Of a stretch of DNA of 64,000 nucleotides, positions 7,586 to 11,761 are shown piece after piece. The position numbers and the translations under genes were made by a program. Source of the stretch: Pseudomonas sp. DY-1 (GTDB taxonomy: Bacteria; Pseudomonadota; Gammaproteobacteria; Pseudomonadales; Pseudomonadaceae); assembly GCF_003626975.1 (NCBI RefSeq), contig NZ_CP032616.1, positions 5,308,001 to 5,372,000 of the forward strand, read 5' to 3'. Positions within the stretch are counted from its first letter, which is position 1. Each line of letters starts with the position of its first letter. The notes under the pieces were generated by a model, which saw only the letters and a program-made list of their open reading frames with translations, was not told where the DNA came from and did no database searches.

Positions 7586-7957
7586 TCATCTATGGCTGGA
7601 CAGGGTGATCGATACCGACTCGGCGAAGCGCAACGCATGGGGCTTATCCACCTCCACCTCGGCATAGCGCACGCTCGGGTTGGCCATCACCAGGTCGAGG
7701 ATTTCCTGGGTCAGGCGCTCCAGCAAGGCGAAGCGGTTTTCCTCGACGTGGCGGATGATCGCCTTGGTAATGGTGCGGTAGTTCAGCGCGTGGTCGATGT
7801 CGTTGTCGCGCACTGCCTCGGCAGCCGGGTAGAGGATGGTGAGATTGATCAGCACATCCTGCTTGTTGAGGATTTCCTCCTCCTTGATTCCGATGAAGGT
7901 GCGCAGGCGCAGGTCCTTGACGCGAATTCGCGCCATTCCGGGCTCCAGTCTCGGCAT
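7586..7957 (-). CDS. folX: Dihydroneopterin triphosphate epimerase (FolX)
   Basis: 123 residues of the FolB/FolX fold: [19 protein letters not shown] at the start, Asp/His pairing around NYRTITKAI, and [17 protein letters not shown] at the end, where FolX rather than FolB has the KPHALRFA sequence. It epimerises 7,8-dihydroneopterin triphosphate to dihydromonapterin triphosphate on the way to tetrahydromonapterin, the cofactor of phenylalanine hydroxylase in pseudomonads. The gene begins three bases after folE. ATG at 7957 has GGAG nine bases away; ATG at 7936, with GGAG at six bases, is an equally good start. Confidence 0.9.
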
Positions 7958-7960
7958 TCT

Positions 7961-8521
7961 CTAGTTGCTCCGTCCGATCAGTTTCAGGAATTCGTGGCGG
8001 GTATTCTGGGACTCCCTGAAGGCGCCCAGCATCACTGAGGTGCTCATCACCGAGTTCTGCTTTTCCACGCCGCGCATCATCATGCACATGTGCTGGGCTT
8101 CGATCACCACCGCGACGCCGGCGGCACCGGTCACCTGCTGCACCGCTTCGGCGATCTGGCGGGTGAGGTTCTCCTGGATCTGCAGCCTGCGCGCGAACAT
8201 GTCGACGATGCGCGCGACCTTCGACAGCCCCAGCACCTTGCCGGTGGGAATGTACGCCACATGGGCCTTGCCGATGAAGGGCAGCAGGTGGTGTTCGCAG
8301 AGGGAATAAAGCTCGATGTCCTTGACCGTCACCATCTCGTCGTTGTTCGAGGCGAAGAGGGCACCGTTGACGATTTCGTCCAGGCTCTGTTCATAGCCGT
8401 GACACAGGTAGCGCATGGCCTTGGCCGCGCGCTTGGGCGTATCGCGCAGGCCTTCACGGTCCGGGTCTTCGCCCAGGCCAAGCAGGATTTCCCGATAGTG
8501 CCGGTTCAGTTCATCGCTCAT
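7961..8521 (-). CDS. folE: GTP cyclohydrolase I
   Basis: 186 residues, full length for FolE. The zinc ligands are visible: Cys and His in LCEHHLLPF and the second Cys in [10 protein letters not shown]. The enzyme opens GTP to 7,8-dihydroneopterin triphosphate, first step to folate and monapterin. It lies between folM and folX in one leftward operon, which points to monapterin synthesis. A pseudomonad normally has another FolE or FolE2 for folate, so this copy may be dedicated or condition-specific. Confidence 0.95.
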
Positions 8522-8541: not shown

Positions 8542-9252
8542 CTACTTGAGGTGGCGGCCGCCGTTCAGGGTCAGGGTCGTTCCGGTGACGTAGGAGTTGT
8601 CCAGGAGGTAACGCAGGCCCTGGTAGACGACCTGCGGGCCGGGCTCGATGCCCAGCGCCGACTTGGCCAGGGTCTTCTTGCGGTAAGCGTCATCGTCATC
8701 GGCATTGAACATCACCAGTGCTGGAGCAATTCCGTTGACCTTGATGTGCGGGGCAAAGCGCGCGGCGAAGGACAGTGTCAGATTGTCCAGCCCGGCCTTG
8801 CTGGCGCAGTAGGCGATACGCTTTTCGCTGCCACGGCGCGCCACGTCGTCACTGAGGTGGATGATGTCGGCCGGGCTGCTGCGGCGCAGCAGTTCCTCGC
8901 ACTGCAGGTTGATCAGGTAGGGCGCCAGCATGTGCACGCTGAACATCCGCTGGAAGGCCTCGGCCTCATGGCCGGGCGCTTCCGTGAGCCAGTCCGAGGC
9001 GTTGTGGATGATGGCGCGCAGGCTGTTGGTGCAGGCTTTGAGCGAGTCGATGAAGGCAAGGATCCCGACTTCGCTGGCGAAGTCCGCCTGCAGCGTCACG
9101 GCACCGCGTTGGCGCAGGTGCCGGACGCCGTCACGTTCGGTGCGGTAGCTGATGATCACCGGCTGGCCGTCGTCCAGCAGGCGCTCGGCGCAGTAGAGGC
9201 CAATGCGCTGGCTGGCGCCGGTGATCAGGATGGGGGCGGTGGGGCGGCTCAT
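8542..9252 (-). CDS. folM: Dihydromonapterin reductase (FolM), short-chain dehydrogenase family
   Basis: 236 residues with TGASQRIG as the cofactor loop (the arginine is typical of FolM/pteridine reductases rather than the usual TGxxxGxG), NAS in place of NNAG, and the catalytic YCASK. FolM reduces dihydromonapterin, and dihydrofolate weakly, with NADPH. It is the first gene of the folM-folE-folX run, 20 bases upstream of folE, and completes a tetrahydromonapterin pathway. A TTGTACAA palindrome and a TATAAC box lie just upstream. Confidence 0.88.
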
Positions 9253-9287: not shown

Positions 9288-9315
9288 GTTATACCAGGGG
9301 TGGGGCTTGTACAAA
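9288..9315 (-). promoter_or_regulatory. Possible folM-operon promoter with a TTGTACAA palindrome
   Basis: Read leftward, TTGTAC (9314-9309) is followed after 15 bases by TATAAC (9293-9288), 36 bases before the folM ATG. TTGTACAA also appears, extended, in the dyad near 11232 next to the MerR-type regulator. The short spacing is poor for plain sigma-70, so an activator would be needed. Weak but suggestive. Confidence 0.35.
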
Positions 9316-10135: not shown

Positions 10136-11083
10136 ATGACCGAATCCGGTGCATCCCTCGCATCCCGCGCCCTGAAACAGGAAGAACTCTTCCCGATTCG
10201 GGAAGTTTCGCGCCTGACGGGCGTTAACCCGGTCACCCTGCGGGCCTGGGAACGGCGCTACGGGCTGATCCAGCCGACGCGCACCGACAGCGGTCACCGC
10301 CTCTATTCAATGGCGGATGTCGAGGCGGTGCGCAGCATCCTCGCCTGGATCGAGCGCGGCGTCTCGGTGAGCAAGGTGGGCAAGCTGCTGGCCCGTAGCC
10401 ACGCGGCGAAGGTGCCGGTGGCGCCGGTTCACCACGAAGCGGCCGCAGGGGAGTGGAGCGAGCGGCGCGCCCAGGTGCACAAGGCCTTGTCCACCCTGGA
10501 CGAGGCGGAGCTGGAACGGGTCTACGGCCAGGTGTTCTCCACCTATCCCCTGCATGTGGCCTTCGCCGATGTGCTGATGCCGGTCTGGCAGGCACTGTTG
10601 CTGCGCCAGGATGAGTTCGGCCGTGGCAGCGAGTGGGTCTTTTTCGACAGCTTTCTCCGCGCCCGCGTCCTGCAGCGTCTGCAACTGGCCCGCAGTGGCC
10701 AACAGCAGCGCGTGCTGCTGGCGCCGTTGCCAGGGCAGGGGCGTGAACTGGAGCTGCTGGTGGCCGGCCTGTTGCTTGGCAGCAGCGAGGTGGCCGTCAG
10801 CGTGCTTGGCCTGGGCCAGCCGCTGGCCGAGCTGGAGATGGTTTGCGGCAAGCTGCAGCCCCAGGCCATGGTGCTGTTCTCCAACCAGCCGCCGGACGAT
10901 GACCTTGGCCAGCAACTCACCCGGCTGGCCCAGGGCCTGGACTGTCCTCTGGCCCTGGCCGGCGATACCTCCGACCTGATGAGCGAGGAGCTCGACGGCA
11001 CGCCCGTCGCCTGCCTCGGCAGCGAGGGACGACTGATGCAGCGGCGCCTGCGGCAGTTCCTTTCCGGTCACCTGGATACCTGA
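10136..11083 (+). CDS. MerR-family regulator with degenerate B12-binding-like domain (class II LitR type)
   Basis: 315 residues from ATG 10136 (an in-frame TTG at 10127 is possible). Residues ~20-90 are a MerR winged helix: EVSRLTGVNPVTLRAWERRY, then SGHRLYSMADVEAV. The remaining 220 residues follow the four-helix plus Rossmann layout of CarH/LitR photoreceptors, ending in an ANQPPDDDL-like and AGDTSDL turn. The cobalamin-contact histidines are not there: the helix reads WVFFDSFLR where CarH has EH, and PGQGRELELL replaces the ExHxxG loop. Such B12-free class II LitR proteins in P. putida respond to blue light through a LOV protein, and a LOV gene faces this one. It probably controls DNA-repair or pterin genes. 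Confidence 0.8.
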   Translation: MTESGASLASRALKQEELFPIREVSRLTGVNPVTLRAWERRYGLIQPTRTDSGHRLYSMADVEAVRSILAWIERGVSVSKVGKLLARSHAAKVPVAPVHHEAAAGEWSERRAQVHKALSTLDEAELERVYGQVFSTYPLHVAFADVLMPVWQALLLRQDEFGRGSEWVFFDSFLRARVLQRLQLARSGQQQRVLLAPLPGQGRELELLVAGLLLGSSEVAVSVLGLGQPLAELEMVCGKLQPQAMVLFSNQPPDDDLGQQLTRLAQGLDCPLALAGDTSDLMSEELDGTPVACLGSEGRLMQRRLRQFLSGHLDT

Positions 11084-11197
11084 AGCTGCTTTCGCCCGTC
11101 TTTCGCCGAATTCATCGAGGCTAAGGCTGCTGGCCGGCTAGCGGCCCGACACGCTGCGCTTCAAGCGACCGTTCGGCAGGAAGAGTCCAGCAACCCC

Positions 11198-11255
11198 TTG
11201 CTGGCGTGCTGATCAAATTCTATACAATAACTTGTACATAAATTTGTTTTGTACA
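11198..11255 (+). promoter_or_regulatory. Promoter and MerR-type dyads between the LitR-like and LOV genes
   Basis: TTGCTG (11198-11203), 17 bases, TATACA (11221-11226) makes a fair sigma-70 promoter reading right. TATACAA-N4-TTGTACA (11221-11238) is an 18-base near-palindrome, the usual size of MerR operators, and a second TTGTACA lies at 11249-11255. Both flanking genes end here, so the promoter serves neither directly. A terminator follows at 11271. Confidence 0.5.
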
Positions 11256-11270
11256 GATTTTGTCTGCGCT

Positions 11271-11316
11271 ACCGGTGGCCGATTTGTTCACCCTTCTTGG
11301 GCTACCGGTTTTTTTC
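11271..11316 (+). terminator. Terminator between the LitR-like and LOV genes
   Basis: ACCGGTGGC (11271-11279) pairs with GCTACCGGT (11301-11309), one G-U included, followed by seven T. It ends the LitR-like gene's transcript and any RNA started at the upstream promoter. The T tract runs into the last codon of the opposing LOV gene. Confidence 0.75.
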
Positions 11317-11761
11317 AGCCTTTCAAGGCCGCCAGCTCGGCCTTGAGGCTGGCCAACTCCGCTTCCAGTTCACGCACCCGCTGACGAGCTTCCACCTGTT
11401 CGGTGACATCTTTCTGGATGCCGATGAAGTAGGTGAGTTGGTCGGACTCGTTCAGAACCGGGGTAATCGACAGCTCGTTCCAGAAGGGACTGCCGTCCTT
11501 GCGGTAGTTACGTAGGATCTGCCGGCTCGGCTGGCCATTGCGGATCGCCTGGCGAATGGCGGCCAGGCCCAGCTGGTTGCGGTCCTTGCCCTGGAGGAAA
11601 CGACAGTCCTGATAAAGGATTTCGTCGCGGGAGTAACCGGTCAGGCGTTCGAAGGCGGCATTGGCATAAATCAGGATATTGTCTTCGCCTTCCTGCTCGG
11701 CGACCACGATGCCATCGTTGGAGGCGTCTATTACCAGTTGCAGCAGCTTGGCATTGATCAT
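11315..11761 (-). CDS. Short LOV blue-light photoreceptor
   Basis: 148 residues, nearly all one LOV (PAS) domain with a C-terminal helix and no output domain. Cys53 in YQDCRFLQGKDRNQ is the flavin-adduct cysteine; the FMN-contact asparagines and glutamine appear in NYRKDGSPFWNELSITPV and YFIGIQKDVTEQ. It closely resembles the P. putida short LOV proteins SB1/SB2. The last 25 residues (VRELEAELASLKAELAALKG) form a heptad coiled coil, likely the dimer or partner contact. Light-driven FMN-cysteine adduct formation would change its interaction with a partner, most simply the facing LitR-like regulator. Confidence 0.93.
   Translation of the reverse strand: MINAKLLQLVIDASNDGIVVAEQEGEDNILIYANAAFERLTGYSRDEILYQDCRFLQGKDRNQLGLAAIRQAIRNGQPSRQILRNYRKDGSPFWNELSITPVLNESDQLTYFIGIQKDVTEQVEARQRVRELEAELASLKAELAALKG

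Follow-up and report, generated by a model that had tools for sequence, protein, structure and literature searches.

The window analyzed here, a stretch of 64,000 nucleotides of the genome of Pseudomonas sp. DY-1 (contig NZ_CP032616.1), encodes a class II LitR-type regulator of the MerR family (315 aa; 10136..11083, plus strand) and, on the opposite strand, a short LOV blue-light photoreceptor (148 aa; 11315..11761, minus strand), which possesses the LOV core and the photoactive Cys53 and has no output domain, as is typical of the PmSB-LOV type. The two genes lie tail to tail, as the sequence-only reading of this DNA had stated, and its description of the LOV protein has likewise stood. What that reading left without mention is the content of the 231-bp gap between the genes, which has an operator-and-hairpin unit of its own: a predicted LitR-type operator cluster (11221..11255, with TATACA at 11221 and TGTACA at 11233 and 11250), followed by a candidate small RNA or terminator unit (11264..11315, plus strand). 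Further along the minus strand are the genes for folM (dihydromonapterin reductase, a predicted LitR target; 8542..9252), folE (GTP cyclohydrolase I; 7961..8521), and folX (dihydroneopterin triphosphate 2'-epimerase; 7586..7957), with the sequence TGTACA-N12-GGTATA before folM (9290..9313, minus strand), a form of operator published for folM of Pseudomonas mendocina (PMC9758184).

As to the regulator, its N-terminal part is a MerR helix-turn-helix domain (Pfam MerR_1, 4.3e-16) that matches CarH as well as other MerR structures, and in a structure comparison that extends to the C-terminal part the protein has a CarH-like fold, with the helix-turn-helix, the four-helix bundle, and the Rossmann-like domain that are all shared with the CarH of Thermus thermophilus, a class I LitR. 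Unlike CarH, it lacks the histidines of the cobalamin face: in the alignment H132, H142, and H177, whose roles are described in PMC4557120, are all three replaced (R157, W167, and R203, respectively), including the lower axial H177 of the B12-dependent proteins. The proposal of a LitR/CarH layout devoid of the cobalamin-binding histidines has thus been confirmed. The B12-binding_2 domain (PF02607), reported for the P. mendocina regulator PmlR2 (PMC9758184), has no Pfam match in the window LitR at E-values up to 10, the helical bundle being present by fold, and it is matched in a second LitR encoded in the same genome. Class II LitR proteins are called adenosyl-B12-dependent in one publication (PMC11417400), contrary to another, in which B12 binding is argued against (PMC9758184). 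A direct, B12-dependent photoreceptor role of the regulator, with the LOV protein acting on something else, would agree with the CarH-like fold of the C-terminal part, but we consider it highly improbable, given the replacement of the three histidines, the conserved pairing with the LOV gene described below, and the precedent of PmlR2 (PMC9758184).

This precedent is the closest known system. In P. mendocina NBRC 14162, pmlR2 and the gene for PmSB-LOV are adjacent, a blue-light adduct and light-dependent LitR binding have been demonstrated for PmSB-LOV, and the lit protein was shown to bind the helix-turn-helix part of PmlR2 and, by surface plasmon resonance, to inhibit its binding to DNA (PMC9758184). 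Lit PmSB-LOV also restored in vitro transcription by lifting the PmlR2 repression, for which Cys53 was needed, while in gel shifts, contrary to plasmon resonance, the lit complex stayed on the DNA, and no mutants were obtainable in the strain studied (PMC9758184). The likeness to the window is extensive: a short LOV of 148 aa, with Cys53, next to a class II LitR, the folM, folE, and folX neighbors, the TGTACA-N12-GGTATA sequence before folM, and a single short LOV accompanied by a second LitR, which in P. mendocina is found at the phrB locus (PMC9758184). The differences are that P. mendocina-type loci have a PilZ-type gene between the LOV and LitR genes, where the window has the operator-and-hairpin unit, and that the identity between the window LitR and the LitR of these loci (L018-L024, L031) is only 62-66%. 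The earlier step, before the P. mendocina biochemistry, was the genetics of Pseudomonas putida KT2440, in which class II LitR proteins (PplR1-3) were placed under the control of short LOV proteins (PpSB1-LOV and PpSB2-LOV; PMC9758184; PMC8508746), with three regulators and two short LOVs in that strain versus two and one here.

Thus the partner assignment made by the sequence-only reading was right as to the pairing but is not a new one, adjacency and light-dependent contact having been shown for the orthologous pair in 2022 (PMC9758184); as the switch itself is known, the window pair is not new in kind and adds one more member. Homology to the tested pair lends good support to the proposal of a B12-free LitR/short-LOV light switch, while that of a closed two-gene switch does not hold for this genome. 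Besides the single short LOV (the other 18 LOV/PAS matches are in open frames of at least 368 aa), the genome encodes a second LitR-type regulator, 40% identical to the first, at a photolyase locus that lies outside the window and also carries a RudS-type gene and N12 operators (L181, 4898-8240).

A comparison of neighborhoods, which had been proposed as a check, reveals a conserved pairing. Among the 80 named loci listed in a LOV-anchored survey (of 503), a LitR relative is found within the examined flank in 67 and in none of the remaining 13; of the 67 pairs 49 are tail to tail, while 18 have LitR on the other side, head to head. All 17 of the same-genus relatives have the tail-to-tail arrangement, with short gaps. 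Nine of the head-to-head pairs, several from Stutzerimonas, are within 400 bp of each other (L043, L048, L052, L056, L059, L064, L069, L086, L090). Many of the tail-to-tail loci have the PilZ-type gene, missing from the window, between LOV and LitR. At L018 (7513-8121), L023, L033, L067, L072, L073, and similar loci, a gene of approximately 200 codons in the same direction as LOV occupies this position, probably the PME15565 of PMC9758184; its product has a PilZ match in L018 (4.1e-7) and none in L054.

Taken with the folM, folE, and folX neighbors, which are as described for P. mendocina (PMC9758184), these observations make it very probable that the window pair is an orthologue of the PmlR2/PmSB-LOV switch, with dark repression by LitR and blue-light release by LOV, even if the moderate identity of the regulators, the gel-shift result and lack of mutants in the P. 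mendocina work, and the absence of a Pfam match to B12-binding_2, despite the matching fold, count against it. By analogy with the P. mendocina work, LitR would in the dark occupy TGTACA-type operators before folM-folE-folX and before light clusters elsewhere in the genome and repress them; blue light would produce the Cys53-flavin adduct in LOV; the lit LOV would bind LitR and take it off the DNA, acting as an antirepressor; and dark recovery of LOV would restore repression.

Operator-type sequences, at which LitR binding is predicted, are present at folM, in the LitR/LOV gap, and elsewhere in the genome at two further light loci. TGTACA occurs at 11 sites in the window versus 3.6 expected, with none of 100 shuffles reaching 11. 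Of 43 loci with a folM of at least 60% identity, 35 retain the folM operator form or a variant of it with GATATA. The N12 pattern alone is weak evidence, as a scan of the genome returns three sites, all at the photolyase locus of the second LitR, versus two matches for a control pattern. The last two hexamers of the gap form an N11 module (TRTACA-N11-TGTAYA) that has two copies in the 5.9-Mb genome, versus none for the control pattern. Its other copy precedes an operon with chalcone-isomerase-like, SDR, and photolyase-related genes, and this operon adjoins genes for CMAS, DUF1365, and amine oxidase (L187, 275-8210, outside the window), a cluster of the light-related kind described in PMC9758184. 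The operators of CarH also consist of TnnACA repeats (PMC9304148), but these are 11-bp tandem repeats, while the steps in the gap operator are 12 and 17.

In our opinion, the unit in the gap deserves a second look; it would matter more than the pair, and it would be new if an RNA is made from it. On the LitR strand, the operator cluster is followed by the leader CTGCGC, a 9-bp stem (11272-11280 with 11300-11308), a pyrimidine-rich loop of 19 nt, and a run of seven T (11309-11315) that touches the LOV stop codon, and this strand folds better than its shuffled versions (z -3.5). The gap operators may control a short transcript: a promoter overlapping the last TGTACA would start it near CTGCGC, and it would end at 11315, giving approximately 50 nt. 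This step we infer, since a simple scan of the gap returned neither a consensus promoter nor a terminator, results that also count against a functional small RNA gene in the gap.

Bacterial small RNAs, both stand-alone ones and those derived from 3' UTRs, typically have a short leader, a terminator hairpin with a U-tail, a regulated promoter of their own, and a homologous end on an mRNA. The gap unit shares the leader, hairpin, and U-tail, a start predicted to be operator-regulated, and, as discussed below, the homologous mRNA end; it differs in its control by a LOV-antagonized repressor and in having no match to a known RNA family. Neither the window (10900-11500) nor a related locus (L066, 9000-9280) has an Rfam match at the gathering score, the best being RybB in the latter (20.3 bits versus the 40 of the gathering score), and a known family was thus rejected. 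Two further origins were discarded. The hairpin is not followed by a T-run on the LOV strand, so it does not serve as the LOV-gene terminator, and the operators are not a leftover promoter of the P. mendocina-type PilZ gene, as no TGTACA cluster is present between LOV and that gene, or between that gene and LitR, among the loci listed.

A profile built from six copies of the unit detected it in 22 loci besides the own copies (E-values up to 0.48), and a covariance model built from 22 rows finds in the own genome a single copy (57.9 bits, the next match being at 17.8). Across the family it gives 65 matches, in 61 of 398 genomes and 5 of 19 genera, counts that include the own genome and some of those on which the model was trained. 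Among 87 other loci, mostly LOV loci with no match to the first profile, only one (L088, 25.6 bits) is at an E-value of 0.01 or below. One model match (L184, in genome G156) looks like coding sequence and was taken as false, leaving 12 of 37 genomes of its genus positive. Thirty of the 65 matches were fetched as loci, and further ones were also read. Half of these 30 copies are stand-alone, each with at least two TRTAYA hexamers within 130 nt upstream; LitR lies upstream of 14, and for the 15th the start of the contig is too near. Two hexamers occur in 3% of random 130-bp windows and in 24% of those with a GC content of 0.5 or below, the windows being drawn from the same loci and so including the units themselves; AT-richness accounts, therefore, for part of the upstream hexamers, not for all. 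Four genera have the stand-alone unit behind LitR, g14 in just one genome (L156).

The structure of the candidate RNA is conserved and covarying, a property expected of a small RNA. When 60 matches, among them L088, are aligned to the model, giving 46 distinct rows in an alignment that leans to the model, 98.9% of cells are paired, and 6 of 10 pairs are double-changed, in 49 cells. None of 500 shuffles of these rows reach the observed values for cells paired, double-changed cells, or score, while as many double-changed pairs are obtained in 19 of them and as many pair types in 81. In rows aligned with MAFFT, 99.0% of cells are paired, with 3 double-changed pairs in 10 cells, and 121 of 500 shuffles reach 3 pairs. 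The CTGCGC leader, which lies outside the hairpin, hardly varies in these rows, but the model was trained on it; the loop is pyrimidine-rich (mean 0.79) in all 40 distinct copies caught by a pattern that misses some copies, 35 of them with CCC or alike. A 5' hairpin before CUGCGC, absent in the window, is folded in 15 of 18 copies from other genera (duplicates included), and a four-row alignment gives it partial support that is suggestive only.

With duplicate genomes removed (L141, L153, L138, L148, L109), conservation of the element varies among genera. In a Halopseudomonas-like genus (g5) the stand-alone copies have a mean identity of 0.87, compared with 0.67 in the LitR coding DNA and 0.60 in the 3' flank, and in a genus resembling Pseudomonas sagittaria and Pseudomonas linyingensis (g10) the means are 0.90 versus 0.87 and 0.62, with the element above both in 45 of 45 and 6 of 6 pairs, respectively. 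The stretch from the first operator to CTGCGC displays no block conservation (0.55 in g5, 0.61 in g10), and in g5 its overall identity does not exceed background. In the genus of the window the means are 0.71 in the element, 0.80 in LitR, and 0.66 in the 3' flank, with the element below LitR in all 10 pairs and above the flank in 7, and of the 17 relatives 11 have no such unit in the gap, while one (L103) keeps the hairpin with no hexamers.

Another alternative, in which the hairpin is just the litR terminator and the hexamers either arose by chance or act as a decoy for LitR, is suggested by the orientation of the hairpin toward litR-strand transcripts, no other terminator having been found in the gap. 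We consider it unlikely, as the 11 litR genes of the same genus just mentioned manage with no hairpin unit, and as operators and hairpin travel together, also to acyl-CoA dehydrogenase genes far from LitR. The other half of the fetched copies have no hexamer within 130 nt upstream: 14 of the 15 follow an acyl-CoA dehydrogenase gene, and the remaining one (L158), which has no dehydrogenase match, reads by eye like the end of such a gene. In nine named loci (L036, L041, L042, L046, L047, L053, L057, L060, L065) the operator cluster, the dehydrogenase gene, and then the same hairpin are found between LitR and LOV, and at five dehydrogenase orthologues (L163-L166, L171), whose 7-kb stretches contain neither LitR nor LOV, TGTACA-type operators precede the gene start and the hairpin follows the stop codon. 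The protein encoded behind these operators starts MxxYRAPLRDMRFVF. Judging from these operators, acyl-CoA dehydrogenase is likely a LitR target in related genera, one that the available text of PMC9758184 does not name, and the comparison thus adds it to the likely LitR regulon of these genera, with the operators kept even away from LitR.

The same observations suggest another origin of the gap unit, as a promoter and a terminator left behind after the loss of a LitR-operated dehydrogenase gene, with no function as RNA. In favor of such a remnant are the nine loci with the dehydrogenase in place, the five orthologues elsewhere, and the weak conservation and frequent loss of the unit in the window's genus. 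The genome of the window has no orthologue of the dehydrogenase (best match 56%), which is likewise in favor of a remnant, and a dehydrogenase of its own as a neighbor or source of the unit was for this reason rejected. On the other hand, a dead promoter and terminator should decay, and stand-alone units persist in four genera, in two of which leader, stem, and loop outlast both the flanks and LitR. A remnant thus appears a serious contender, nearly as likely as a functional RNA.

Because leader, stem, and loop have been retained in other genera, we favor, tentatively and at somewhat short of even chances, a working small RNA gene at 11221-11315, repressed by LitR in the dark and released in light, and so a candidate for induction by blue light. 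Its distribution over five genera, the stand-alone copies with upstream hexamers behind LitR, the covariation of the stem, the constant pyrimidine-rich loop, the N11 module shared with a light-type operon, and the same RNA end behind operator-bearing dehydrogenase genes of related genera are consistent with such a gene, while its low conservation and frequent absence in the window's own genus, the hairpin devoid of hexamers in L103, and the unremarkable operator stretch in g5 speak against it. With its exposed CUGCGC and C-rich loop, the RNA might, with about the same reservation, act on other mRNAs. In its fullest form, a small RNA gene that is induced by blue light from LitR operators, placed between repressor and photoreceptor and sharing its end with LitR-operated dehydrogenase mRNAs, the proposal is possible though less than probable. 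If it is true, one regulatory RNA would occur in two forms, as the 3' end of an mRNA and as a separate gene, since the end is common to the dehydrogenase mRNAs, and the small RNA would extend the LOV-LitR switch to post-transcriptional control. Should the RNA be made, a repressor controlled by LOV would gain an RNA output, testable at one operator. We found no report in the open-licence literature of a unit joining LitR or a MerR-LOV pair with a small RNA or an acyl-CoA dehydrogenase, and the available text of PMC9758184 makes no mention of a gap unit between LitR and LOV. In several relatives with no gap unit (L098-L101, L104, L105; L016, L017), palindromes of the GTAGGAGCGAGCTCTGCTCGCGAA type, which by eye resemble REP elements, lie between LOV and LitR.
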